23,203 nucleotides of DNA from a virus, in IMG/VR virus record IMGVR_UViG_3300037070_010305, positions 1 through 23,203 of that record; one strand, written 5' to 3'. Under the pieces are notes generated by a model that ran no database searches, had not been told where the DNA came from, and was given only the letters and a program-made list of their open reading frames with translations. Positions 1 through 22,895 of the stretch are shown here, one piece after another. Made by a program: the position numbers and the translations under genes. Every line of letters begins with the position of its first letter. Within the stretch, counting starts at the first letter, position 1.

Positions 1-974
1 GAGACATCACGCGCGGCTGCATTGCGCGACTCGAGCCAGTCCATCTCGGCAGGAGTGAGAGACATCTGCATCCACTCGAGACGGCCGTCCAGAATGGGGA
101 TGCGACCCGCGTTGTTCGGGCCGACCATGCCATCGTTGATCTGCTCCTTGATGGCCTCCTTCTGGGTGACCGTGAGGTTCGCGGGATCAGTTTCAGCCGG
201 CTTGTAGACGAGCGCACCGCTGGGCTTCGCACCATTCTGGAGGAGTGACTGATTCCACTTCCCGCTCATGTTGCGACCATCGATCTCCATGCTCGCGGCC
301 TCAACCGGGCTCATGCCGTACCAGTCGTCCAGCGGGTTGAAGAACTTGATGTGACAGATCGGTCCGGTGTTGTCGATCGGGTTCATGTCCCAACGCTTCG
401 TATCAGCGTTGAAATCGTAGATGAATCCCGCGACGCCCATCTTGCTCGGGAGCACGCGCATGCGATCGGGACGCTGGGTCCAGAGTTCCACCGGGCCACC
501 ACCGCCATCGATGTCATCGCCCATGGAGTTCTTGCGAGGAGTCTGGCCGATGCCCTCGACGTACGAGTTACCCGTGAGCATGAGGTATGAGATGACGTTG
601 TTGAAGAAGACCTTTCCGTTCTGCGTCGGGTTCGGCTTGTTCAGCAGCTTGACGAGCGGGTGCTTGCTCGGGAGCTGACGACACTTCTTCAGGTTGGTCT
701 TGTCGCCCTGCATCACGCGCAGAGGGATCTCGCTCGCGCTCTTGGCGATCATGTTGATGGAGCGGTAGGCCGGGAGACACTTGACGTAGGCCTCGCTCGC
801 GTACTGCTTGAAGTCGCGCTTGGTCCAGACGCCCCAATTCTCGTTCCCAGCGTACATCTGGTAGATGATCGGCGCGGTGTCGGAGATCTTCTCACCGACC
901 ATGCGCTGAGGAGTATGCACGCGCGCGGGTGGACGACCGATGCCAAACTCAAAGCCGAGGATATTGAATTCCAT
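1..974 (-). CDS. Portal protein, HK97 family (C-terminus beyond window)
   Basis: This is the dodecameric ring protein at the capsid vertex through which DNA is packaged and ejected. Translation from an ATG at 974 gives 324 open residues to the window edge. Visible family features are an N-terminal stretch with AYRSINMIAKSASEIPLRV, then HPLVKLLNKPNP, then a YLMLTGNSYVEG segment, then LWTQRPDRMRVLPS. Near the edge comes SLTPAEMDWLESR, the conserved HK97-portal segment before the clip and stem. An AGGA ribosome site sits about 7 nt before the ATG. It follows the large terminase by 8 nt on the same strand, the usual terminase-portal order. The protein is incomplete only because the window ends; no internal stop is seen. 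Confidence 0.93.
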   Translation of the reverse strand, partial: MEFNILGFEFGIGRPPARVHTPQRMVGEKISDTAPIIYQMYAGNENWGVWTKRDFKQYASEAYVKCLPAYRSINMIAKSASEIPLRVMQGDKTNLKKCRQLPSKHPLVKLLNKPNPTQNGKVFFNNVISYLMLTGNSYVEGIGQTPRKNSMGDDIDGGGGPVELWTQRPDRMRVLPSKMGVAGFIYDFNADTKRWDMNPIDNTGPICHIKFFNPLDDWYGMSPVEAASMEIDGRNMSGKWNQSLLQNGAKPSGALVYKPAETDPANLTVTQKEAIKEQINDGMVGPNNAGRIPILDGRLEWMQMSLTPAEMDWLESRNAAARDV

Positions 975-982
975 GTTGAGTC

Positions 983-2371
983 CTATTCTACAGGTGAACG
1001 AACGAGCACGAGACCAGCGCCTGACACGGTGTCGACTTGGTCATCATGCGGAAGTTTGGTGGGGATCATGTCCTCAGGCAGCGTGTCCCAATCAGCGAAC
1101 GCCTCCAGCTCCTCAAGGAACGCCTTGTTCCAAGGAGCTTGAATGAGCTTGATGTTCCGCGCCTCAGCCTGAGCCGACATCATCAGGGCTCGTTTAGCTT
1201 TTGAACCCTTCGGCGGAAGGAAGCGCACTGGCGAAGGACAGTCGATAAGTTCCTTCTGGTACATGGCACGCTCAGCCTTGCCAGCTTGAGCGGGGTCGAG
1301 CTCAAGCCAGGGCTCGCAATCCTCACCGTCAAGCATACATGTCGCTTTGATCTCCTCGAGCACACCCTCGGGGCGCTTACGGAAACGACGAACGTCACAG
1401 ATGGTAAAGATGCCATGGCTGTAATTCACTTTCGTCCCGACAGTCCAGTCAGGGTCAGGGTTGCCAGTGCTCGGTTCAGTCGCAGCTCTGTCCCAATAGC
1501 GTATCGTACGTCCGCTCTTCGGCTCAGTGGTCACGAAGTCAAACCACGCGCGCTGGAAGAACATGCCAGCGACAGGACGAACGTTCCAGTTCCCATGCCT
1601 CAGCTTCTCGCGCTCTACGAGAGGGAGCGCTTCCAGATTACCGAGGTAGTCCGGGTCGTTGGCCATGCCGAGCTCATTGTCCTCGATCCTGGAGGGAATG
1701 AACGTGAGCGACTTCGGCGGGACCAGCTCCTTCGTGACCGGATTGCGCGTGCAGAGATCAAAGAGCTCATCAGGAGTATCGGCCCAATGGATCGCATCAC
1801 CCTTACGAACGAAGTAGCGCAGCACACCCGAGCGTTCAGGGATGGGGAATCCGTTCTCGTCCAGCCACCACGAGATGAAGTCCTTGACCCACGAATCGCA
1901 CTCGGGGTTGCACGTCGCCCTCATGTAGGGGCGGATCTTACAGGGCTTAGCGAGGCGATTGCGAGATAGCAGGTAGAAGAACTGCGACTTGGAGAAGTGG
2001 GTGAGCTCGTCCCAACCGATGAACGGGTAAGCCGCGCCCTGATGCGAGAGCTTGTCCTTCTCGTGCTGCATATGAGCGAAGCGGATGCTCGGTCCAGCGG
2101 GCCACTCCCATCGCTTGGCGCTCTCTATCGGCGTGCCTCCTGCGCTGGAGTAGATCATCTCGCTCGTGTCCCAGAGACCACCATCGTTCGTGATCTGCGG
2201 GCTCGTACGCCTGAAGATGACTCCGGACCAGCCTGGATCGTTCACGCCCCTGAGCGGATCCATGAGAATGCCGAACGTCTTGCCTCCGAATGCGGCGCCT
2301 CCATAGATAGCGATGTCCGCTGATGTGGACAGGAACGCCTCTTGAGGACCGGGCTGAGGACGAAGGATCAT
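983..2371 (-). CDS. terL: Terminase large subunit (packaging ATPase-nuclease)
   Basis: This 462-residue protein is the motor that translocates phage DNA into the prohead and cuts it. The N-terminal ATPase has a Walker A-like GGAAFGGKT (residues 24-32), which resembles the variant P-loops common in terminases, and a Walker B with catalytic acid FIGWDE (D121, E122). The C-terminal RNase H-like nuclease shows its acidic motifs: YWDRAAT (D294), WLELDPAQAGK (E357, D359) and PHDDQVD (D443, D444, D447). The start at 2371 overlaps the upstream stop as ATGA and has a strong GGGAGGAG site. All motifs expected for an active enzyme are present and the length is normal. Headful or cos packaging cannot be decided from this sequence alone. 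Confidence 0.96.
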   Translation of the reverse strand: MILRPQPGPQEAFLSTSADIAIYGGAAFGGKTFGILMDPLRGVNDPGWSGVIFRRTSPQITNDGGLWDTSEMIYSSAGGTPIESAKRWEWPAGPSIRFAHMQHEKDKLSHQGAAYPFIGWDELTHFSKSQFFYLLSRNRLAKPCKIRPYMRATCNPECDSWVKDFISWWLDENGFPIPERSGVLRYFVRKGDAIHWADTPDELFDLCTRNPVTKELVPPKSLTFIPSRIEDNELGMANDPDYLGNLEALPLVEREKLRHGNWNVRPVAGMFFQRAWFDFVTTEPKSGRTIRYWDRAATEPSTGNPDPDWTVGTKVNYSHGIFTICDVRRFRKRPEGVLEEIKATCMLDGEDCEPWLELDPAQAGKAERAMYQKELIDCPSPVRFLPPKGSKAKRALMMSAQAEARNIKLIQAPWNKAFLEELEAFADWDTLPEDMIPTKLPHDDQVDTVSGAGLVLVRSPVE

Positions 2372-2955
2372 TTACTCCTCCCGTTGTCCGGAATGTAGAT
2401 GTTCACGCGCTCCTCACCCTCGGTTCCTGGAGCAGATGAGCCCGGCAGCGCACTCTTATCGGCCTTCTTCGCGCGCAGATAGGGTATCGCCTCACAGATC
2501 GCCTTCAGCCGGATCTTCCCATCCATCATGCTTCGGGCTATGTCGCGCCCCGAGGGCTTCAAGGGGATTCCGTCCGTGTTGTAGATCGCCTCAGCGTCCA
2601 ACTCCTCCTGAGACATCAGCCCGAGACCGACCACATCGCCCATCATGACCATTGCGAGCAGCTCCTCAGGGTCCACTGTCATCCGGACGAGCTTGTCCTG
2701 GAACGATTCAGTGGGATCGAGCTTCGGCGCCCTGATCTTGATCACTCCGGTGTTCGGAGCCTTGATGTTCATGGTGTCGAAGACGTTCTTGTCGCTCTTC
2801 ACGAACACGACGGTCTTCGGGAGGTTCGGCTTTCCTGGAGTCTTGCTCGGTATCGGCTTCTTCGTCTCGGGCGGTCGCTTGAGGACCATCTTCTTGGTAC
2901 TCTTCCTCAGGACGAGCTTCGGTTTCTTCTTCGGATCCCGTGACTTACTGCCCAT
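2368..2955 (-). CDS. Putative terminase small subunit
   Basis: This 195-residue protein lies directly upstream of, and overlaps by 4 nt, the large terminase, the usual place of the small subunit that recognises packaging sites. The first 55 residues are very rich in Lys and Pro (PKKKPKLVLRK, ETKKPIPSKTP) and are probably disordered and DNA-binding. The rest is helical. A segment SMMDGKIRLKAICEAIPYLRAKK followed by a C-terminal VNIYIPDNGRSK resembles the helical repeat and tail of small terminase-like phage proteins. The start at 2955 has an AGGA site about 8 nt upstream and a leader of about 50 nt from the putative promoter arm at 3008-3029. Assignment rests mainly on position and general resemblance, so another DNA-binding packaging accessory is possible. 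Confidence 0.6.
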   Translation of the reverse strand: MGSKSRDPKKKPKLVLRKSTKKMVLKRPPETKKPIPSKTPGKPNLPKTVVFVKSDKNVFDTMNIKAPNTGVIKIRAPKLDPTESFQDKLVRMTVDPEELLAMVMMGDVVGLGLMSQEELDAEAIYNTDGIPLKPSGRDIARSMMDGKIRLKAICEAIPYLRAKKADKSALPGSSAPGTEGEERVNIYIPDNGRSK

Positions 2956-3007
2956 GGAGCGAATCCTGGCATCATATTAGGAGCAAAGGCAAGCGTTAAT
3001 TGCCTAC

Positions 3008-3029
3008 GGATAATAGGGGTAGGGGTGTG
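3008..3029 (-). promoter_or_regulatory. Left arm of paired divergent promoter-like element
   Basis: Read on the minus strand, this element starts CACACCCCTAC and ends ATTATCC, pointing toward the packaging genes. It matches the right arm at 3238-3259 in 20 of 22 positions, as an inverted copy. Its TATTATCC end lies about 52 nt upstream of the small terminase start, leaving a normal leader with a ribosome site. No ordinary -35 box is placed correctly, so it may be read by a phage-specific or modified polymerase, or be an activator site. Confidence 0.5.
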
Positions 3030-3042
3030 CACCCTTCCCTCT

Positions 3043-3120
3043 TCCCTCTAAAAGACACTCTCAGAATATGTCTACTCAAGTATGAGATGATCGAAGAGAA
3101 TCGAGAGAGACTTAGAGGGA
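3043..3120. repeat. Inverted repeat within the divergent control region
   Basis: A perfect 9-bp inverted repeat joins TCCCTCTAA (3043-3051) with TTAGAGGGA (3112-3120), and a second pairing of CTCTC with GAGAG lies inside it. The loop is about 60 nt and contains one copy of the direct repeat ATCGAAGAGA (3090-3099). It could be a protein-binding region or a small structured RNA. No uridine tract follows, so it is not a typical terminator. Confidence 0.4.
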
Positions 3121-3237
3121 TAGGAGTTCGAACCAATCGAAGAGATCGACGATGAGAGAGATAACCTCGATAAAGAACAATTGCCAACAGGTAATACCCC
3201 CTAAGCTACCCTCAATTAGACAAGAAGACCCCGACCC

Positions 3238-3259
3238 CACACCCCTACACCCATTATCC
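3238..3259 (+). promoter_or_regulatory. Right arm of paired divergent promoter-like element
   Basis: This is the inverted near-copy of 3008-3029, starting CACACCCCTAC and ending ATTATCC. It includes most of a TATCCT (3255-3260) that fits the TANNNT -10 pattern. That hexamer lies only 9 nt before the ATG at 3270, so a transcript beginning at the usual distance would have almost no leader. No Shine-Dalgarno site precedes that ATG, which agrees with a near-leaderless message. No good -35 box was seen. Confidence 0.5.
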
Positions 3260-3269
3260 TACCCCAATC

Positions 3270-3923
3270 ATGCTCACCTACCTCCCTGACGAGTCGTATA
3301 CGATCAGCGCGAAGCTGCTCGATACGCCCACCCTCGCAAAGACGATAATGTTCACGAATCAGGTGATAAAGGGTGTCGTACTCGTCAATGATCTCCTCAC
3401 ACCATTCGCCAGCACGTCCCATAGGACGAGGGAGCTGTCGGATGGATACGTGGTCAACTCCTGGAGGAACAACCTCGGGAGCCTCCTCGCGTACGGTCGT
3501 GCGCTCTGCGACGAGTTCGAGATCCGCTCGACGCACACGGCGTATGGGGTCCGGGCCATGAGCGTCAAGTATCGGCAGCGTCCCAAGATGATCCATCGGT
3601 TCTATACGCAATACGATCACTTCGTAGTTGATCGCAATATCCCCCAAGATGATCCTTGGTGGCTGGGATATTCGGAGTATCATCGGAGGCATATGGCTGT
3701 CTTGACCACCGAGAACAAGCTCAACGAGGATCGTGACATCCCCGAGCTCGCGAACACGAAGCTCCCTCCGCCGATCCACAAGATCAACCGCTCGGGTAGC
3801 GCGGGCGCAGGCCGGTATCCGGTGCTCCATCCGTTCCCCGAGGTCAAGGGCGCGTTCATCGACAACGCATCCGGCGGCACGATCCGTCTTCACCAGGAAC
3901 AGACTCTGGATTGGGAGGCATAG
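3270..3923 (+). CDS. Probable pyrimidine dimer DNA glycosylase-family protein
   Basis: This 217-residue protein opens with MLTYLPDESYTISAKLLDTP and continues through LAKTIMFTNQVIKG. That resembles the N-terminus of the MSMEG_6728 / T4 endonuclease V-like (Pyr_excise) proteins, which begin M-x-T-[FY]-LP, followed by a Leu-Asp and an LGK-type helix. Residues near WWLGYSEYHRRHM match the family's later WLG...HRSH segment. T4 endonuclease V cuts DNA beside UV dimers, and its N-terminal residue acts in catalysis; whether this protein does so is inferred. The match begins at the first Met, which supports the 3270 start despite the absence of a ribosome site. The last 50 residues extend beyond the usual family length. 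It heads a nine-gene operon and could have another base-excision role. Confidence 0.5.
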   Translation: MLTYLPDESYTISAKLLDTPTLAKTIMFTNQVIKGVVLVNDLLTPFASTSHRTRELSDGYVVNSWRNNLGSLLAYGRALCDEFEIRSTHTAYGVRAMSVKYRQRPKMIHRFYTQYDHFVVDRNIPQDDPWWLGYSEYHRRHMAVLTTENKLNEDRDIPELANTKLPPPIHKINRSGSAGAGRYPVLHPFPEVKGAFIDNASGGTIRLHQEQTLDWEA

Positions 3924-4702: not shown

Positions 4703-4896
4703 GCTCCTTTCCCATCGTCTTCTCCATCTACGGAGGCCCACTCGATGGGAAGACTCATAGCATAGACCAGGAAGCTTACTTCCGCTTCGGCATACCGAGC
4801 GTCATCAGTCTTCCCTTCGAGGACAAGCTCGCGGTCCACAGCGTAGATGAGAGAAAGAAGACCATGAAGTTCATCGCCCTGGAGAATAAGAAATGA
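4699..4896 (+). CDS. Small GGPLDG-motif protein, GTG start
   Basis: This 65-residue protein starts at GTG 4699, which overlaps the preceding TGA as GTGA. It begins MSSFPIVFSIYGGPLDGKTH. The Y-G-G-P-L-D-G-K motif near the N-terminus is a feature of several small uncharacterised phage proteins. The remainder looks like a small beta-rich domain (VISLPFEDKLAVHSVD, then TMKFIALENKK). The start of the protein encoded two genes later (SSIYGGRPVGGKS) resembles this N-terminus, so the two may share a short motif. Function is unknown. Confidence 0.68.
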   Translation: MSSFPIVFSIYGGPLDGKTHSIDQEAYFRFGIPSVISLPFEDKLAVHSVDERKKTMKFIALENKK

Positions 4897-5288
4897 TCAA
4901 ACGTCAACGACTCTCCAAAGCCAGCGCGTTCTACGAGCAGCTCGGGAAGGTCGCCCGCACGAAGCGCGACAATCTCAAGGAGGAGATGAGAAAGCTCTAC
5001 GAGCCCGAGCGATTCGATATCTCGGCGCACGTGGAGGAGCTGAAAAAGGTGATGGGTGCCCCGGAGCATATGCTCTATAAGGGAGACCTCGAAGCATCTC
5101 TCAAGTACGCTCAGCGCCAAGCGGAAGAGAACGGATGCAGGGACATGTACCGCATGACCGCGGCGGTCTACCTCGGCGTCGGGTACGACGATGTCACCCA
5201 GGAGCAGCGTGACAAGATCAAGAAGTACTGCTTCGGCCTCGTCTATAGGCCAATGGGAACGATGACCGGCAGGTATCATCATGAGTAG
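4893..5288 (+). CDS. Hypothetical helical protein, 131 aa
   Basis: The ATG overlaps the previous stop as ATGA. The 131-residue product is strongly charged and mostly helical, with a probable amphipathic or coiled region at residues 5-55 (ASAFYEQLGKVARTKRDNLK, then EEMRKLYEPERFDISAHVEE). The C-terminal half (ASLKYAQRQAEENGCRDMY, then TAAVYLGVGYDDVTQEQRDK) ends in a His-rich tail, GRYHHE. No catalytic motif or family is recognised. Its stop lies 8 nt inside the next gene, typical of translational coupling. Confidence 0.7.
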   Translation: MIKRQRLSKASAFYEQLGKVARTKRDNLKEEMRKLYEPERFDISAHVEELKKVMGAPEHMLYKGDLEASLKYAQRQAEENGCRDMYRMTAAVYLGVGYDDVTQEQRDKIKKYCFGLVYRPMGTMTGRYHHE

Positions 5289-7316: not shown

Positions 7317-7347
7317 GCCTTAGTTCTACGCACGCACACGCCGACCA

Positions 7348-7417
7348 GCAACCTAGGTTGCCTAACGGACAGAAATTCTAACCGTTAGGTTTCCTAACTT
7401 GCTTTTAGGCCCCTAGG
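7348..7417. promoter_or_regulatory. Operator array of CCTAR/YTAGG palindromes
   Basis: Four dyads are packed in 70 bp between divergent genes. (1) The perfect 14-bp palindrome GCAACCTAGGTTGC is at 7348-7361. (2) A dyad centred at 7375 has CCTAACGG (7361-7368), CCGTTAGG (7382-7389) and an AGAA/TTCT core. (3) GTTAGG, TTT, CCTAAC is at 7384-7398. (4) TAGG, CC, CCTA runs 7406-7415 and overlaps a CCTAGG palindrome at 7412-7417. All share the CCTA[A/G] half-site. A leftward -10-like TAGAAT (7380 to 7375) sits at the heart of dyad 2, so bound repressor would block it. The Cro-like protein encoded next door is the natural ligand. Confidence 0.72.
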
Positions 7418-7432
7418 CGCAACCCTGCGACC

Positions 7433-7633
7433 ATGCTTACACCCGTAGAAGTCGTCATCAAGACTCTCGGGTCAGTGAGAGACGTCGCCTTGACGTGTCG
7501 TATTTCTCATGGAGCAGTTTCTCAGTGGCGGATTCATGGACAGATTCCCTCTCATCACATGCCTGCGCTCCTGGGAAGATGTGGTCCGCTCGGTGTGACC
7601 GCTGAGGAATTGATTCTCGGTCGTCAAGAATAA
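7433..7633 (+). CDS. Cro/YdaS-like transcriptional repressor
   Basis: This 66-residue protein is essentially one helix-turn-helix domain. Residues about 10-36 (KTLGSVRDVALTCRISHGAV, then SQWRIHG) match the Cro/YdaS pattern, in which a G-x-x-x-x-V-A helix is followed by a recognition helix with V-S-Q-W-R. The following IPSHHMPALL matches the I-P-x-x-x-x-P-x-L tail of the same group. Such proteins bind palindromic operators as dimers and often repress their own synthesis. Here the operator array lies immediately upstream, which supports autoregulation and control of the divergent 6405-7316 gene. No Shine-Dalgarno site precedes the ATG. No partner CI-type repressor or integrase lies in the window, so a lysogeny switch is only a possibility. 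Confidence 0.8.
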   Translation: MLTPVEVVIKTLGSVRDVALTCRISHGAVSQWRIHGQIPSHHMPALLGRCGPLGVTAEELILGRQE

Positions 7634-11776: not shown

Positions 11777-12061
11777 ATGAGCCAGTTCGGGTTGACGAGT
11801 AATGAGACGGGTGGTTACTTCTTCGCGATGCTGATGAAGCGTCAGGCGAAAAAGAAACTGTCCGACGGGTTGCTCGCCCGAGCCATGAACGAGGAGTTCG
11901 GCACCACGCGGTATGACCAGCGACTGATGCGCATGTATCGGAACCGCTACAACCGCGGGGAGCTGAACGCCCGGACTGGCAGACCTGCGAGCCCCGTTCT
12001 CAGGTACGATGATGATGGTAAGGTGTTCGCGGCTCGCCGTGGACCACCGCCGAAGAGATGA
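11777..12061 (+). CDS. Small basic helical protein, 94 aa
   Basis: The product begins MSQFGLTSNETGGYFFAMLM. It has a basic helical middle (KRQAKKKLSDGLLARAMNEE, then DQRLMRMYRNRYNRGEL) and a Pro/Arg-rich end (GPPPKR). Residues 30-60 resemble a DNA-binding helical region, but no named family is clear. The ribosome site is weak. Its stop overlaps the helicase start as ATGA, so the two are probably co-translated; an accessory role in replication or recombination is an inference from position. Confidence 0.65.
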   Translation: MSQFGLTSNETGGYFFAMLMKRQAKKKLSDGLLARAMNEEFGTTRYDQRLMRMYRNRYNRGELNARTGRPASPVLRYDDDGKVFAARRGPPPKR

Positions 12062-13545
12062 TAACCAAGCGTCCGCTTCGGGATTACCAAGATGGAGCCC
12101 TCCGATTCTTTCCAGGATCGGGGGCTTTTTTTGCTTTTGACATGCGGCTGGGGAAGTCGATAACTGCCATACGATGGATGGAGCAACGCAATGCTTTCCC
12201 TCTGCTTATTATTTCTCTGTCTACTGTTCTTATCGGCTGGGAAGAGGAGCTCGAGCGGGAGGGTATTAAGGAAGTCGTATACCTCCGAGGATCTCTTAAG
12301 GAACGCGAAGCCTACCTCAATTCCTGGGCCGGGAAGACCAATAAGCCGAAGGTGATCCTGGTGAACTACGAAGCCGTCCCTCGTCTCGAGGAAGCTCTCG
12401 TAGAGTACGGGTTCAAAGGTGTCGTAGCCGACGAAACCACCGTCTTCAAGAATTGGGGTCCAGCGATAACCAAGTCAATGCTCTATCTACGGAAGAACAT
12501 AGAGTTTGCTGTCGGGTTGAGCGGCCTGCCGAATCCAGAATCGTGGTTTGATATATTTCCGCAGATGGTATTCGCCCACGGATCGTTCATGGAGTGTACC
12601 AACTTCTTCAAGTGGAGGAAGCGCTACGCGAAGCAGTACGGGTATGACTGGATCATCCCCGTTAAGAACATGGTCAAGATCAAGGAGGCCTACCATGCAT
12701 GCGCGGTCACGATCACCCGAGCACAAGCCGGGTACCGAATCGGAAAGGTTTACCAACGTAGGATGGTGCCGCCGACACGGGAAATGGTGGCTATACAACG
12801 GGAGGTCGCGCGCACATGGGAGATTCCAGGTCTCACGGACTATGATGACGCGTCACTCGATCAAAACGACTCGCAAACCAAGTATTCATTCGTCATCACC
12901 TCCTGGCTCCGGCGGATGGTCGGAGGATTCCTACCAGGACGACGACTAGAAAGTAACAAATATGAAGAAGTCAAACGAATTATCAATTCTCTGCCCTCCA
13001 CCGAACGAGTCGTTATCTGGTTCGCCTTTAATGATGAGATCCGACGGGCAGGAGATTATCTTGGGAAACATTGTAAAGGTCGATGGGAATACATTGACGG
13101 TACAGTTGAACGAGAAAGGCGTAGAGTTCGTATCCAGAATTTCCGCCAAGGCTCCACCCGTTTCCTTCTCGTCCAGCAAACCTGCGGACGGTTCGGACTG
13201 GACCTATCATCTGCGGACACGGTAATCTACTTTTCGAATAGCCACTCCAATGAAGTTCGTTCTCAAAGCGAAGACCGTGTCGTCATGCCTGGAAAAGAAA
13301 GGGACGCCCTCATCATCGACCTCATTACAGAAGGAACTGTGGAGGAGGAAGTTTACGCTACCCTCAAAGACAAAAAGTCTACCTCCCGCTCACTACTGGA
13401 AAGAGTATGTGGCCGATTCGGAGTGGCTGTCGATCGATCCGGGCCTCGGGGGGACCGGCTGGGCTCTGTGGAACGGCGTCAGGCTCCTAGCCAGCGGGTC
13501 CGTTTCGTCCTCAGGAAAAGTGGATCTCAACGGGCGATGCAGTGA
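12058..13545 (+). CDS. SNF2-family helicase/translocase
   Basis: This superfamily 2 ATPase has up to 495 residues. Motifs are: Q-like LRDYQDGA; Walker A in DMRLGKS (K33, S34); VNYE (motif Ib region); VVADETTVFKN (D125, E126; the DEAH-box position); and SGLPNP (motif III). The C-terminal lobe has VVIWFAFNDEI, then QQTCGRFGLDLSSADTVIYF and RSQSEDRV (motifs V-VI). Phage proteins of this type are thought to remodel replication forks or recombination intermediates. The core ends near residue 450 (SRSLLERV); residues 451-495 lie in the overlapping resolvase region and look like a shadow, rich in Arg/Ser/Gly. The ATG overlaps the previous stop. Confidence 0.9.
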   Translation: MITKRPLRDYQDGALRFFPGSGAFFAFDMRLGKSITAIRWMEQRNAFPLLIISLSTVLIGWEEELEREGIKEVVYLRGSLKEREAYLNSWAGKTNKPKVILVNYEAVPRLEEALVEYGFKGVVADETTVFKNWGPAITKSMLYLRKNIEFAVGLSGLPNPESWFDIFPQMVFAHGSFMECTNFFKWRKRYAKQYGYDWIIPVKNMVKIKEAYHACAVTITRAQAGYRIGKVYQRRMVPPTREMVAIQREVARTWEIPGLTDYDDASLDQNDSQTKYSFVITSWLRRMVGGFLPGRRLESNKYEEVKRIINSLPSTERVVIWFAFNDEIRRAGDYLGKHCKGRWEYIDGTVERERRRVRIQNFRQGSTRFLLVQQTCGRFGLDLSSADTVIYFSNSHSNEVRSQSEDRVVMPGKERDALIIDLITEGTVEEEVYATLKDKKSTSRSLLERVCGRFGVAVDRSGPRGDRLGSVERRQAPSQRVRFVLRKSGSQRAMQ

Positions 13546-16922: not shown

Positions 16923-16952
16923 TCCCTGGTGGCACTCGTAATGGACCAGTGG

Positions 16953-16982
16953 TACCTCGGAGGATTTCCTCCGAGGTATTTT
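16953..16982 (+). terminator. Strong intrinsic terminator before the polymerase gene
   Basis: An 11-12 bp perfect stem joins TACCTCGGAGGA (16953-16964) with TCCTCCGAGGTA (16967-16978), followed by TTTT. It lies 31 nt after the stop at 16922 and 10 nt before the ATG at 16992. It separates the highly expressed single-strand-binding genes from the polymerase and argues against a polymerase start at GTG 16929. Confidence 0.82.
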
Positions 16983-16991
16983 GGTCAACTC

Positions 16992-19163
16992 ATGCGATTC
17001 ACACTCCCACCCATCGTTGGCAAGTACGAGACCTTCGGTTTCGAATCGTTTAACCCGAAGAAGTTGATGTCGTGTGACACGGAGGCCACCGGGCTGGACG
17101 TGTGGGGCACCTATGGGATCGACCGTTCGCTTATGCCAGCGCGCGGGTTCATGTTCCAGTTCTGCGATGAGGACGGAAACGTCGCGAGCATCAGGTTCGC
17201 TGTTCTCCCCAGAACCAGATCTGTCCTTTACCACCCGGACGGCATAGCGCTCGCTAACAAGTTCCTCAGCAACGAGAAGCTCGAGAAGATATTCCACAAC
17301 TACCCGTATGACGGCAAGATTCTGGAGAAGGCAGATGTGAAGCTGCGCGGGGTCATCCATGAGACGATGATCCGCATGCACATCATCAACTCAGAGAGCG
17401 GTTCCCTCGGGCTGAAACAGATAGGTGAGGAATTTCTCGACATACCGGCTGACGACGAAGCTGATTTGCAGAAGAGCACCATTGCCGGCCGGCGCTTAGG
17501 GAAGAAGAACGGTTGGCCGCTGTCCGATAACGTCAAGGGTGACTATCATCTCGCGGATCCCGGTCTCACGCGCACGTACGGTGAGCGCGATGCGCTGCGG
17601 ACGATGTCGCTCTTCCTTCACCAGGAGGAGTTCTTCAAGGAGAACGCCGATCAGGTAGAGGTGTACGCCCGAGAGCTGCGCGCGATGCATGTCATATTTG
17701 CGATGGAGAAGAAGGGTACTGCAGTTGACAAGGCGAATGTCCAAGAGCTGGACAAGTTCTATACGGCTGTGACTGACAGGTCGCAGGCAGCCATCAAGAA
17801 GATAACTGACAAGCTCCTCAACGGTAAGCCGTTCAATCCCAATAGTTCTCCTCAGAAGCAGGTAATCTTCTTCGACAAGCTGGGGCATACCCCACTGGCC
17901 TTCTCCTTTAAGAAGAGCAAGAACGGAGGGGGTGGACGCGGAAAGCAGTGGACGAAATGCGTACACTGCAAAGGGACAGGGGAGAAGTTCAAGATCGGTG
18001 GAATGAAGACGTGCGGAGTGTGCAAAGGCGAAGGGAAGAACCCGAAATGTGACGGCGATTTCCTGGAGAGTATCGGCATCCAGTACGACGAGGACGAGAA
18101 TCCTAGCCAGAAAGATCCGCTCGCCTACAATCTGCTCTACAATTCTGCCGCCAATACGATGATGACGTTCGTCAAAGCCTACAAGCATCTGATGGTGCTT
18201 GAGGATGGCGAGTGGGTTATTCATCCGAACTACCGGCAGGCTAAGGTCAAGACCGCGCGTCTCTCGTGCGAGAAGCCCAATCTGCAGAACGTGGCCAGCG
18301 ACGACTCTGGTAAGAAGCGGGTTGATCTGCCGTACCGCGTGCGCGAGTGCTTCGTCCCCAGGAAGGGCAAGCTCTTTTACATACCCGACTATTCCCAGAT
18401 TGAAATCTGGCTCTTGGCTCTCCTTAGTAAGGACCAAGAGTTCATCGATTCTCTGGCTAAGGGTGGTGACGCACATCAGATCGTAGCTGACATGATCTGG
18501 CCTGACGCTTACGACCGACAGATCGTAAAGGACGCCAAGAAGATTCTCAAGGCACACCAGCACGAGAAGGACCCCGATAAATACCTGACACCGCTTCAGA
18601 AGAAGCACGTCAAGGCAGCGAAGATGATTCGCAAGATCGCCAAGAATCTGAATTTCTGCAAGGTGTACGGCGGAGGCCTCGGCAAGATCGCTCTCATGTC
18701 CGACAGCACGCTGGAGCAGGCGGCGCAGTTCGATGCTGACTATGACGTCAGGTTCCCGGCGGTCAGCAAGTTCATGGAGGACACCATCCGTTTCGCCAAG
18801 AGGCACGGGTATGTCAAGACCCCGTACGACCGTGTCTATCGTGTCGACCCGAATCTCGCGTACCGCGCGACCAACTACGCCATTCAAGGAACCGCTGCGG
18901 ACCTGATGAAGGGTGCAATGGTCAACGTGCATCAGCTAGCTATTCAAAAATACCCTGGCAAGCTAGACCTTCTGCTGCAGATTCATGACGAACTTGTCAT
19001 AGAAGCTGATAAATCAATTCATTCGGAGACGACAATGCGTGCTATCTGCAACGCCATGACTGAAGACTACAAGTTCTTAGGAGCACCGATCCGTTTCCCT
19101 GTCGGCATGAAAATCGCAACCGAGCGCTGGTCCAGCGCCACTGAGATCGAGCTCGCAGCATGA
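16992..19163 (+). CDS. polA: Family A DNA polymerase with DnaJ-type zinc insertion
   Basis: This 723-residue replicative polymerase has a 3'-5' exonuclease with CDTEATGLD (D29, E31), HNYPYD (N103, D107) and YGERDA (Y196, D200). The polymerase motifs are A DYSQIE (D466), B R547-x3-K551-x3-F555-x3-Y559-G, and C QIHDELV (H665, D666). Phe at 555 corresponds to F667 of Taq. No 5' nuclease domain is present. Between the domains, at residues 307-355, is an insertion with two CxxCxGxG units (C323/C326 and C341/C344, plus C353). Those units are known from the DnaJ cysteine-rich zinc domain. The frame is open from GTG 16929, but a terminator hairpin lies in those codons, so ATG 16992 is preferred although it lacks a clear ribosome site. 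Confidence 0.93.
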   Translation: MRFTLPPIVGKYETFGFESFNPKKLMSCDTEATGLDVWGTYGIDRSLMPARGFMFQFCDEDGNVASIRFAVLPRTRSVLYHPDGIALANKFLSNEKLEKIFHNYPYDGKILEKADVKLRGVIHETMIRMHIINSESGSLGLKQIGEEFLDIPADDEADLQKSTIAGRRLGKKNGWPLSDNVKGDYHLADPGLTRTYGERDALRTMSLFLHQEEFFKENADQVEVYARELRAMHVIFAMEKKGTAVDKANVQELDKFYTAVTDRSQAAIKKITDKLLNGKPFNPNSSPQKQVIFFDKLGHTPLAFSFKKSKNGGGGRGKQWTKCVHCKGTGEKFKIGGMKTCGVCKGEGKNPKCDGDFLESIGIQYDEDENPSQKDPLAYNLLYNSAANTMMTFVKAYKHLMVLEDGEWVIHPNYRQAKVKTARLSCEKPNLQNVASDDSGKKRVDLPYRVRECFVPRKGKLFYIPDYSQIEIWLLALLSKDQEFIDSLAKGGDAHQIVADMIWPDAYDRQIVKDAKKILKAHQHEKDPDKYLTPLQKKHVKAAKMIRKIAKNLNFCKVYGGGLGKIALMSDSTLEQAAQFDADYDVRFPAVSKFMEDTIRFAKRHGYVKTPYDRVYRVDPNLAYRATNYAIQGTAADLMKGAMVNVHQLAIQKYPGKLDLLLQIHDELVIEADKSIHSETTMRAICNAMTEDYKFLGAPIRFPVGMKIATERWSSATEIELAA

Positions 19164-21274
19164 CCGACGAAGCCATTGAGGCTTTCTCGGCATACGGAAT
19201 TGATCTCACTGAGTCTGGTAGCCAGCTCCTGGGTGATTGCCCGTTCTGCGGAAAGTCCAAATTCTATGTCCACCCTACGAAGACTACTTACAACTGCAAA
19301 GTCTGTAATGAAAGCGGTAACGCCACGTCTCTCCCCGGAGCGCTCTTCGATAAGGTCTATCGAAAAGATGTTTCTCCCACATCGATTAAGCGTTTCGCAT
19401 CGAATCGTGGCCTTCCTGTTGAGGCATTTTTAGACGACCCCAATCTCGGGTTCGATTCTGCCAGCGGTAAGATCGTCTTCAAGACGACGCGGTTCGACGG
19501 TACTTTCGTTGGGCTCCGTACCGCACACGAGACGAAAGAGGGCTTCAAGATCATGCAGGCGCGGGGTGTGGACCTCGGGCTCATCGGGTGTCAGGAGAAG
19601 ATCCGCAAGAACGAGCCGCTTTACATCTGTGAGGGCGAGTGGGACCGAGTTGCGTGGCGCTACCTCCTCAAGATGCTGAAGAAGCCCGGTGTCGTATGGG
19701 CGGTCCCCGGCGCTGGTACCTGGAAGAATGAGTGGTCGCCCGGCGTCGCTGGCGCTGACATCATTGCTCTCTACGACAACGATGAGCCGGGGAAGAAGGG
19801 TGCGGAGCGTTTCTTCCGCCTCAACAAGGGCCAGACGAAGAAGATCCGCTTCATCCATTGGGATGAGGACATGGAAGAGGGGTATGACATCCGCGATGTC
19901 GTCAAGGACAACCTCAAGACCCTGAGCGCGGCGTTCGAGTACGTCCAGACGCATCTGCAGACGCGTGCGCCAGGGGTCGAGGGCAATGAGGAGGAGAAGA
20001 AGCACAGCGAGCAGGAGAATGAACAGGACAAGCTCCCGCCCATCACGGTGAAGGAGCTGCACGCCACGTTCAAGAAGTGGCTGCACCTCGAGAACTGTGA
20101 TCTGCTCGACATCGTCATGGGATGCATGTGGTCCACCTACCTTCCAGGGAACCCGCTCTGGCTGATGGTGGTGTCCCCGCCGTCGGCATCGAAGTCTGAG
20201 ACGTTGATCCCGGTGTCGGCTTATCACCGGTGCTATCCGCTGTCAACCGTGACGACCAAGTCACTCATCAGTGGCTATCAGCTCCAGGGGAATGTCGACC
20301 CCTCGCTATTCGCTGCTATGGAGAATGAGCGTGCCGCAATCATCATCAAGGATCTTACACCGCTTCTACAAGGAAACGAGGCGGAGCGGGACGAAGTCTT
20401 TGGTATTCTGCGGGACGCTTACGACGGCTCAGCTTCGAAGATCTTCGGAAACGGGGTTAAGCGGGAGTATGAGAATCTTCATTTCTCTATCATTGCCGGG
20501 GTTACGCCGGCGATCGATGCGTTCGATTCCGTTGCAATGGGCGAACGGTTCCTCAAGTTCCGTGCTGATCGCGAAATTGACCGCGACGACGATATCACTC
20601 GTGCATACAAAGCGATTACCAACTGCGGCGACGAAAAGGAAATGCGCGAGGAGCTGAAGCAAGCGTGCGTCCGGTCCCTGGTGAGAAAGATAGACATCGA
20701 TGATACTCCTAAACCGGACGACCGATTCGCCGTCGTTATTTCCGAGCTGGCAACTGTATGCGCTCGGCTCCGTGCCGTCGCTCCCAGCGACAGGTTCACA
20801 GACATCCAACAGATGTCGCCAATCATGGAAGCTCCGCCTCGCCTTGCCACTCAATTCACGAAGCTGGCACAAGGACTTTCCATCCACTTTGGAACAGAGA
20901 ACCTTCTTGATGAGAGGATTATGCGACTTGTCCGAAGAGTCGTTGTCCATACACCAGACATTCTCACTGTTAGAGTGGTTAGAGGACTCTTTGATCTTTA
21001 CGAAGATGAGCAGTGTAACGTCAATCTTCTACAGACACGGGTCAAGGGTCTATCGCGGGACACTATCGCTTCAATCCTTACGAAGCTCGCAAGAACTGGA
21101 ACCGTTGAGTACGGCAAGGTCCTGGTGAAGACTGGTACGCTGCGACCGGCGTCCTCTTTCTACCGTCTCAACGAGCACGTCTACGACATCATCAAGAAGA
21201 ACAACCTCTTCGGTAATCTCCCGAAGAACGATCCGCTCTACCTGAAGCCACGATTCACACTGAGGAAGCCATGA
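19160..21274 (+). CDS. Primase-helicase with TOPRIM domain and altered P-loop
   Basis: This 704-residue protein overlaps the polymerase gene as ATGA. An N-terminal DnaG-type zinc ribbon (C27, C30, C46, C49; CPFC...CKVC) is followed by a TOPRIM primase core with ICEGEWD (E158, E160) and ALYDNDEP (D206, D208). A Glu/Lys linker follows at residues 274-292. The second half resembles phage ATPases with a GPPGSGKTE-type loop, a motif near AIIIKDLTPLL (D398), ILRDAYDGSASKIFG and a GVTPAID...GERFLKFR arginine-finger region. In this protein the P-loop reads SPPSASKSE (K345, S346), with every glycine replaced. A C-terminal winged-helix-like region is likely. It probably primes and unwinds DNA for the polymerase; ATP use is uncertain. 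Confidence 0.82.
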   Translation: MTDEAIEAFSAYGIDLTESGSQLLGDCPFCGKSKFYVHPTKTTYNCKVCNESGNATSLPGALFDKVYRKDVSPTSIKRFASNRGLPVEAFLDDPNLGFDSASGKIVFKTTRFDGTFVGLRTAHETKEGFKIMQARGVDLGLIGCQEKIRKNEPLYICEGEWDRVAWRYLLKMLKKPGVVWAVPGAGTWKNEWSPGVAGADIIALYDNDEPGKKGAERFFRLNKGQTKKIRFIHWDEDMEEGYDIRDVVKDNLKTLSAAFEYVQTHLQTRAPGVEGNEEEKKHSEQENEQDKLPPITVKELHATFKKWLHLENCDLLDIVMGCMWSTYLPGNPLWLMVVSPPSASKSETLIPVSAYHRCYPLSTVTTKSLISGYQLQGNVDPSLFAAMENERAAIIIKDLTPLLQGNEAERDEVFGILRDAYDGSASKIFGNGVKREYENLHFSIIAGVTPAIDAFDSVAMGERFLKFRADREIDRDDDITRAYKAITNCGDEKEMREELKQACVRSLVRKIDIDDTPKPDDRFAVVISELATVCARLRAVAPSDRFTDIQQMSPIMEAPPRLATQFTKLAQGLSIHFGTENLLDERIMRLVRRVVVHTPDILTVRVVRGLFDLYEDEQCNVNLLQTRVKGLSRDTIASILTKLARTGTVEYGKVLVKTGTLRPASSFYRLNEHVYDIIKKNNLFGNLPKNDPLYLKPRFTLRKP

Positions 21275-22137
21275 CCCTACCGGAATTTCCGACGGCCAAT
21301 TACCACAAGCCGTCGTTCGATGCCTTCTGGTATTGGATCAACGAGCGACACCTCATCTACAACAAATCGAAGGTTCTCAAGTCGCCGAAGCCGTGGACAA
21401 AGGATGAGATCCTGCAGTCCTACCGCTTCTGCAACGTCTACCGCGAGCTGGATAAGGTGACGATCTGGACGCGGAAGCACTGGCGCGAGCCGTACAAGGA
21501 CCACCCGAATCTGTGGTTCGCCATGGTGGTCGCGCGTCTGTTCAACTGGATCCCCACGCTCGAGGCCATCGGGTTTCCTATGGACGAAAAGTGGGTAGCG
21601 AACATCGAAGGCATCCTCGGCGATCTGCAAGAGAAGCAGAACATCTACGGTGCCGCCTACATCATCACCGCTGGCGGCCAGAGCGGGCCGAAGTACCAGT
21701 ACTCGGCGTCGTGCCTACGGGCGATCTGGCGAAATCCTCCTCCCTTCGCCAGGAAAGGAGCTCCGGCGTGCAGCATCCGTACGATGTGGGACCAGCTCAA
21801 GGACCTGCCGTCGTGCGGACCGTTCGTAGCGTACGAGATTGCCACTGACCTCCGCTGGTCACGGTACTACGATCGCAGCGATCACATGCTGTGGGCGAAC
21901 GCTGGTCCTGGAGCCAAGCGTGGCATCAGCCGCATCTGGACGGGGCAGATCGGAACGAAACCGCGGGACTGCAACGTCTACATGAGGCACCTCCTGAACA
22001 TCTCCGCGCGCTACCTCGCACCCGGTATGAAGCCGCTCGAGATGCGCGACATCGAGCACAGTCTTTGTGAGGTCGACAAGTACCTCCGCGCGAAGTACAA
22101 AGAGGGTCGCCCGAAAGCAAAGTACAACGGCGTATGA
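21271..22137 (+). CDS. aGPT-pyrophosphorylase/HMUDK-helical-domain family protein (DNA hypermodification)
   Basis: This 288-residue all-helical protein shows the signature of the alpha-glutamyl/putrescinyl-thymine pyrophosphorylase and 5-hmdU DNA kinase helical-domain superfamily. It has FDAFWYWINERHLIY (16-30), then PWTKDEILQSYRFCNVYREL (41-60), then LWFAMVVARLFNW, AYIITAGG and LPSCGPFVAYEIATDLRWS. That superfamily, related to helix-hairpin-helix DNA glycosylases, is found mostly in phages with hypermodified thymine or cytosine and acts on modified bases in DNA. The precise reaction here is not known. A GAGGAAG site precedes the ATG, which overlaps the primase-helicase stop, and two glycosyltransferase-like genes follow, strengthening a base-modification role. 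Confidence 0.78.
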   Translation: MTLPEFPTANYHKPSFDAFWYWINERHLIYNKSKVLKSPKPWTKDEILQSYRFCNVYRELDKVTIWTRKHWREPYKDHPNLWFAMVVARLFNWIPTLEAIGFPMDEKWVANIEGILGDLQEKQNIYGAAYIITAGGQSGPKYQYSASCLRAIWRNPPPFARKGAPACSIRTMWDQLKDLPSCGPFVAYEIATDLRWSRYYDRSDHMLWANAGPGAKRGISRIWTGQIGTKPRDCNVYMRHLLNISARYLAPGMKPLEMRDIEHSLCEVDKYLRAKYKEGRPKAKYNGV

Positions 22138-22895
22138 GAATCTACATCCCGACTCTCGGCCGGCAGGAACAGGCAACCTTCGTGTCTCTCCCAGCATGGG
22201 CGAAAAGGATTACGACTCTCGTTTGCGGGGTTGGTGAAAAGCCGTTCCTGGTGAAGAAATACGGGTGCACCGTATGGGAACGACCGGCAGAGGTCAAAGG
22301 AATTGGCGCTGTTCGGAATATGATCATGAAGTTCTCTCGTTACGAGAAGATAATCATGCTCGATGACGATCTCAAGTTTGCCATCCGCAACGCCGATGGA
22401 AAGCTCGTCAAGCCAACAGAAGCCCAGCTGACAGATATGTTCCATACGGTTCATAATCTTCTCGATCAATATGCGCACGGATCTATTTCTTCCAGGGAGG
22501 GGAATAACCACGTCAAGGAAGACATGATTGAAGTATCGCGTCCACAGCGCGTGCTGGCCTACAACCGCATGATGGTCAAGGAGACAGGGGCCCATTTCCG
22601 GGTCCGTATTATGGAGGATTTCGATATGACCCTTCAGCTGCTGCGGAAGGGGTACGCGAATTTCGTCATCTATAATTACTGTCATGACCAAGCGCATGGG
22701 AGCGGTGCGACTGGTGGGTGTAGCGGGTACCGGACCCCTGAGGTGCAGGCTGAGGCTGCTCGTCTTCTCCATTCTCATCATCCTGATTTCGTTACTATTG
22801 TCGAGAAAGAGACGAAAACGGCGTGGAAAGAGTTTGGCGGTAAGCGGGTTGACGTTAGAGTGGCGTGGAAGAAAGCATTCAAGAGCGCATTATGA
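22134..22895 (+). CDS. TET-associated-type glycosyltransferase (GT-A fold)
   Basis: This 253-residue protein begins MRIYIPTLGR. It has GAVRNMIMKFSRYEKIIMLD followed by DD (the D77-D79 metal and sugar-nucleotide site), then MEDFDMTLQLLRKGY (E161, D162) and GSGATGGCSGYRT. This matches the layout of glycosyltransferases found beside TET/JBP or thymine-modifying genes in phages, which attach sugars to hydroxymethylated bases in DNA. It follows directly after the aGPT-like gene with an ATGA overlap. The sugar and target base cannot be read from sequence. No signal peptide or membrane segment is seen, consistent with a cytoplasmic DNA-modifying enzyme. Confidence 0.78.
   Translation: MRIYIPTLGRQEQATFVSLPAWAKRITTLVCGVGEKPFLVKKYGCTVWERPAEVKGIGAVRNMIMKFSRYEKIIMLDDDLKFAIRNADGKLVKPTEAQLTDMFHTVHNLLDQYAHGSISSREGNNHVKEDMIEVSRPQRVLAYNRMMVKETGAHFRVRIMEDFDMTLQLLRKGYANFVIYNYCHDQAHGSGATGGCSGYRTPEVQAEAARLLHSHHPDFVTIVEKETKTAWKEFGGKRVDVRVAWKKAFKSAL

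Follow-up and report, generated by a model that had tools for sequence, protein, structure and literature searches.

In herpes simplex origins, inverted initiator boxes flank an AT-rich spacer; these origins lie between divergent genes and occur in more than one copy per genome. In bacteriophage SPP1, oriL and oriR combine direct repeats with an AT-rich unwinding element, and one protein binds both (PMC6316719). The c2-type lactococcal phages (Ceduovirus) have their origin in the gap that parts divergent early and late modules; its sequence is unrelated from group to group while the function is kept (PMC7150918). Because origin sequences are not conserved, those of most uncultivated phages remain undescribed. 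In this work we examine a pair of inverted arms that separates the packaging genes from the early genes of an uncultivated virus in IMG/VR, and we compare this locus with its counterparts in related viruses and with the systems above.

The divergent gap and its inverted arms

The window is the whole of IMG/VR record IMGVR_UViG_3300037070_010305, a linear stretch of 23,203 bases that comprises the entire assembled contig and is probably a fragment. Its leftward genes encode a portal protein that runs off the record (3..974, minus strand), the terminase large subunit (983..2371, minus strand; phrog_979, E 1e-140) and a putative small terminase (2368..2955, minus strand), which has no PHROG match and was assigned by its position and by the similarity of its C-terminal part to the same-position ORF of a related record, G004. 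The first rightward gene (3270..3923, plus strand) shows weak similarity, under the Pfam cut-off, to pyrimidine dimer DNA glycosylase. The rightward early block includes genes for a ligase, an SNF2-type DNA helicase (12058..13545, plus strand; phrog_62), a RuvC-like protein, an exonuclease, DNA polymerase A (16929..19163, plus strand), a primase-helicase that served as the query defining the virus family (19160..21274, plus strand), a relative of 5-hmdU DNA kinase and a glycosyltransferase. Among the scanned genes of this fragment we recognised neither an RNA polymerase nor a sigma factor.

Some features of the early block stand apart from the gap. The genes at 21271-22895, for 5-hmdU DNA kinase and a TET-associated glycosyltransferase, make it probable that the window virus carries hypermodified thymine. 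Besides the true polymerase there is a stand-alone 131-aa protein (4893-5288) that matches the DNA polymerase A family over residues 83-118 (E 2.6e-6). The helicase ORF and the RuvC-like ORF overlap by about 300 bases in different frames (13250-13545), an overlap barely present in the relative G034; the explanation is either a later RuvC start or an unusual end of the helicase. At 7317-7432 and 7433-7633 a DNA-binding protein of Cro type (P22_Cro, E 3e-6) is accompanied by a divergent gap of its own; the CTAACCGTTAG and CCTAACGG repeats in that gap probably form an operator distinct from the arms.

Leftward packaging genes and rightward early genes are parted by a non-coding gap of 314 bases (2956..3269; gene order minus, minus, minus, then plus, plus, plus), in which neither an RNA family nor a tRNA was found. 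The left arm, GGATAATAGGGGTAGGGGTGTG, occupies 3008..3029 and is assigned to the minus strand; the right arm, CACACCCCTACACCCATTATCC, occupies 3238..3259 on the plus strand. The two are inverted, separated by 208 bases and complementary at 20 of 22 positions; read outward, the left arm is CACACCCCTACCCCTATTATCC on the minus strand and the right arm keeps the plus-strand sequence given above. These coordinates, the degree of matching and the opposite orientation had been reported in an initial annotation and are exact. Dinucleotide shuffles of the gap (n=1000) reached at most 17/22, and a gapped inverted-repeat test gave a score of 34, against 24 or less in 300 shuffles. Gapped self-pairing over the whole gap was not above shuffles. 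The same annotation had seen only two copies in the window; indeed, each arm occurs once, and the 23,203-base record holds no further copy with three or fewer mismatches.

The spacer, or core, of the element (3030..3237) has a GC content of 45%, compared with 56% for the record. We ranked 50-base sites within each genome by nearest-neighbour stability; the weakest site of this spacer (at 3046) came sixth in the 23-kb record. Because its core is only moderately AT-rich, the window is the weakest instance of the pattern that we describe below. As the record is a fragment, a second copy of the element may exist outside it.

The arms had been described as unlike ordinary -35/-10 promoters, which is a fair description. 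TATTAT or CATTAT is present in each arm, a -35 box is absent from both, and the only sigma70-like candidate in the gap, TTAACG-17-TATGAT (2971..2999, minus strand), lies outside the left arm and is at chance level (9/12, with 0.7 expected). The arms might instead serve as binding sites, or as -10-containing promoters, through which a phage-encoded activator, repressor or polymerase controls both operons. The hexamers within the arms favour transcription control of this kind, as does the right arm, which stands 10 bp from the ATG at 3270 with no Shine-Dalgarno sequence before that codon, whereas the missing -35 box and the position of the sigma70-like site speak against it. Two further promoter types were set aside: inward-reading T7-type promoters (ATAATAGGGG), whose conserved part would fall mostly downstream of +1, and a sigma-54 promoter, for which the spacing is wrong.

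A pattern found post hoc, ATTG-N5-RGRTAAT, has three mismatch-free copies in the window, all confined to the gap. One overlaps the left arm (2999..3014, plus strand), one lies within the spacer (3180..3195, plus strand) and one overlaps the right arm (3253..3268, minus strand). The two plus-strand copies fall in an 18-nt direct repeat (2998-3015/3179-3196) that is identical at 15 of 18 positions, a level equalled by about 2% of shuffles. The sole G-quadruplex motif of the window (G3+N1-7; 3229..3252, minus strand) is on the right arm. Finally, TAC flanks the arms at both ends (3005-3007 and 3260-3262), so that the locus has the look of a non-autonomous mobile element (MITE) with 22-bp terminal inverted repeats and a 3-bp target duplication. 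We rank this as the least probable of the explanations considered here, since such a TAC match arises by chance once in 64, ATTG-N5-RGRTAAT crosses both arm boundaries, and unrelated repeats are found at the same place in relatives. Moreover, the arm unit had no match by blastn against phages and plasmids, and the exact arm motif had none by pattern search in IMG/VR.

Corresponding elements in related viruses

The phage collection held no near relative of the window. Single queries with the DNA polymerase, the small terminase, the HMUDK kinase and the first early gene found no close relative among viral contigs, and the terminase was the only single-protein scan to yield relatives. One of these, G004 (IMGVR_UViG_3300005844_000051; 35,388 bases), is a true relative because polymerase, primase, kinase and glycosyltransferase are all present, at 31-53% identity to the window, and it is the nearest record that shares many genes with it. 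It does not include the gap, as its contig ends about 160 bases before the small terminase gene, where the element is expected, in a run of nine G/C (L006 1-10). An alignment of the window and G004 primases, used as the query, recovered about 80 loci, with no match among genome contigs. The family comparison set consists of 35 long records from this primase search, and genes in relatives were called with a simple script.

The exact 22-mer is absent from all 35 records. In contrast, the arrangement recurs: each of the three relatives with the divergent order (G021, G030 and G045) has in its gap an inverted repeat of its own that lies beyond all dinucleotide shuffles. G021 and G030 share both the terminase of the window and its gene order, with packaging genes running left and early genes right; G045 keeps that order with a different terminase. 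The repeats of all three differ in sequence from the window arms; those of G030 are G/C-rich, as are the window arms. On this comparison, the layout appears to be kept across relatives and the sequence not. The two divergent genomes with end repeats, G021 and G030, have one element each; by eye, a second arm pair with C6/G7 runs was spotted in G021 near contig positions 28.43-28.59 kb. The left arm of the window also resembles the arms of G038 (ACACCCCCACCCCCCTATTGTT), with 0-3 of 1000 shuffles as similar and a weaker result for the right arm. After many comparisons this similarity is only suggestive, and the two whole elements are not alignable.

Inverted repeats scoring at least 16 numbered 15 in 1,049 kb of family sequence, compared with 3 in a mirror control and 2 of the same strength in 404 kb of unrelated control contigs. 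The excess is modest by count, and our argument rests on position and composition.

In relatives whose genes run in one direction, searching each genome with its own element by blast revealed a second copy, 72-90% alike (G034, G037, G038, G025 and G053). On the early side of G034 and G037, tail or other structural-side genes end to the left of the copy and an SNF2 helicase lies to its right, directly or past small genes. The other copy stands before the packaging genes, 0.5-7 kb upstream of the large terminase gene, in G034, G037 and G038. These packaging-side copies, the 52 bp between the left arm of the window and the putative small terminase start, and an easily melted site 1.1 kb before the large terminase gene of G024 (one of the two least stable in that genome) speak for a packaging (pac/cos) site beside the small terminase gene. 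Such a site is nonetheless very unlikely in our estimate, because the early-side copy lies at least 19 kb from the large terminase gene along the contig (G034, G037, G038 and G050), and a second copy before replication genes is needless for packaging. A bidirectional terminator was rejected because the window site lies at operon starts and because G034 has a separate terminator-like hairpin before its element.

The arms of one element match each other better than they match the arms of the other copy. G034 has CTCTTTACAAAG in both arms of one element and CTCTTAACGAA in both arms of the other, and the arms of G037 differ between elements as ...TATACAATCTTTATAC versus ...TATAAAATCCTTATAC. Selection for pairing, or homogenisation of the arms by template switching, could produce this matching within elements. 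Genome-specific arm sequences are what one would expect if a phage-encoded protein recognises the arms. The G037 arms consist of two tandem 11-bp iterons that face one another on either side of the core, and beside the second element of that genome lies a third arm-like stretch (1433-1473), which stands alone. The G037 core is about 95% alike between copies, yet inverted relative to the genes, and the same inversion is seen in G025 but not in G038. Elsewhere in these genomes the arm motifs are essentially lacking, being confined to the elements and not repeated at other operon starts.

An invertible segment (inverton) that flips a promoter between two gene sets would also place inverted repeats around a segment between divergent genes, and would allow for the differing core orientation in G037 and G025. 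However, in 11 records, several with end repeats as in complete genomes, no tyrosine recombinase over the cut-off and no serine recombinase was found, and we regard an inverton as even less likely than a packaging site.

These comparisons weigh against the proposal of the initial annotation that the arms act as promoters, each directed at its own genes. One-directional genomes retain a complete inverted repeat, although its left arm has nothing to drive. Some copies (in G037 and G025) carry the core in reverse with respect to the gene downstream, the arms change together within an element while differing between copies (G034 and G037), and the core is usually the least stable DNA of the genome. 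A family of promoters would place copies before several operons in a fixed orientation, whereas here there are two copies in 23 kb and the cores flip in relatives. What finds support in the idea of one signal for the packaging and early sets is a common cis element before both, which recurs in the family.

Easily melted cores in the family and in phage YuA

The least stable 50 bp of the entire genome lie within the element in G021, G030 and G045. In G034, G037, G038 and G025, the two least stable sites (ranks 1 and 2) are the two elements. Since these records had been picked by their repeats, we repeated the ranking on seven others picked without regard to repeats (G022, G024, G035, G054, G044, G023 and G048). 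Two least stable sites stand out, by 4.6-6.3 s.d., in G022, G024 and G035. They resemble each other in G022 (80% over 87 bp) and G035, and significant inverted repeats are present at both sites in G024 and G035 and at one in G022. G044 and G054 have a single such site; the pattern is weak in G023 and G050, and G048, like G023, has no clear pattern.

Pseudomonas phage YuA is more distant from the window than the family records and, like the window, has a relative of the 5-hmdU DNA kinase. The least stable DNA of YuA lies at 33163, before the terminase, and at 624, before the early helicase; both sites rank far ahead of the third. There, a perfect common 30-mer, GTTTAAGGTAAGTAAGTTAAGTAAGTTAAG, built of 9-bp tandem repeats, occupies 622-651 and 33160-33189; it is absent from the features of the YuA record. 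That record does annotate promoters with clear -35/-10 boxes at 489-568 and 33014-33160 (boxes at 509-537 and 33048-33076). These boxes lie about 85 bases or more before the 30-mer, which is outside them. Thus, each YuA region is a promoter plus a separate, easily melted repeat core.

A proposed origin, transcription control and the described systems

The flipping of cores, the symmetry of the element, the arms that change together and the least stable core fit an initiator with an unwinding element better than a directional promoter. The likeness to the SPP1 and c2-type origins leads us to take the arms as the edges of initiator sites in an origin. We therefore tentatively read the two arms as bounding a single symmetrical cis element of origin type, embedded in the early/late control region. 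The chance that this is correct is, in our judgement, a little short of even, and we consider it likelier than a directional promoter pair. In such an origin, a phage-encoded initiator would bind the inverted arms, bend or pair them and melt the weak DNA between; helicase and primase would then load on the melted core and replication would start. The divergent genomes have one such element and the one-directional relatives a pair, at the start of the early module and ahead of the packaging genes, an arrangement comparable to oriL and oriR of SPP1.

Several observations are consistent with an origin. Repeated, putatively bound sites lie beside the core: the arms and the three ATTG-N5-RGRTAAT copies in the window, the 11-bp iterons in G037 and the 9-bp repeats in YuA. 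Two similar copies are present in G034, G037, G038, G025, G053, G022 and YuA, and one region in the window fragment. Other observations argue against it. The number of elements tracks the operon-start regions, two where these are apart and one where they are together, which a promoter explains directly. YuA has its annotated promoters within both regions. The pattern is not present in every family member, and the window core ranks only sixth. GC skew switches at both elements in G034 alone (minimum at 18085, maximum at 54892).

Transcription control of both operons thus keeps a substantial share of our belief, though a smaller one than the origin, because the copies track operon starts. The elements sit at the starts of the early and packaging operons and are merged into one in divergent genomes, YuA has clear annotated promoters in both regions, and the 24 bp downstream of the G038 element are identical in both copies. 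Against it stand the symmetry of the element and the flipping of its core relative to the genes, the failure to find the arms again at other operon starts, and the arms that differ between copies of one genome yet match each other. Origin and transcription control may both be true. A bolder version, which we think improbable, is that a palindromic element whose self-complementarity rather than sequence is conserved, duplicated or common to the early and late starts, couples the start of replication with the early/late transcription switch, perhaps through a hairpin or cruciform that an initiator recognises by its shape.

Two simple features, the least stable site of a genome and an inverted repeat at the early or packaging start, coincide across members of a divergent family and in phage YuA, which can be cultured. 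Such sites can be found from sequence alone, and the question can be tested in YuA as a laboratory phage. The YuA intergenic regions (413-839 and 32840-33498) are alike in holding the least stable sites before the early helicase and the terminase and in sharing a 30-mer; unlike the window, they have weaker inverted repeats, adjoining promoters, unrelated sequence and genes that all run in one direction. YuA also has 28-nt repeats, annotated as sigma70 promoters that need a phage cofactor, which are phage-specific, promoter-like and of similar length to the arms. They differ from the arms in being five copies in gene direction along the early region, with no inverted pair and another sequence.

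The herpes simplex origins have a layout similar to that of the window, although virus, proteins and sequence are unrelated and the likeness is an analogy only. The SPP1 origins, bound by gp38, resemble the elements described here in being two per genome, in having an AT-rich core with repeats, and in lying one in the early region and one between genes (PMC6316719). Their repeats are direct and one origin is within gene 38, whereas here inverted arms surround the core; the window fragment has a single copy in place of two origins. The c2-type origins include early promoters and can sustain a plasmid in the absence of phage proteins, and inverted arms are not mentioned in the passages describing them; they share with the window element a position between divergently transcribed early and late modules (PMC7150918).
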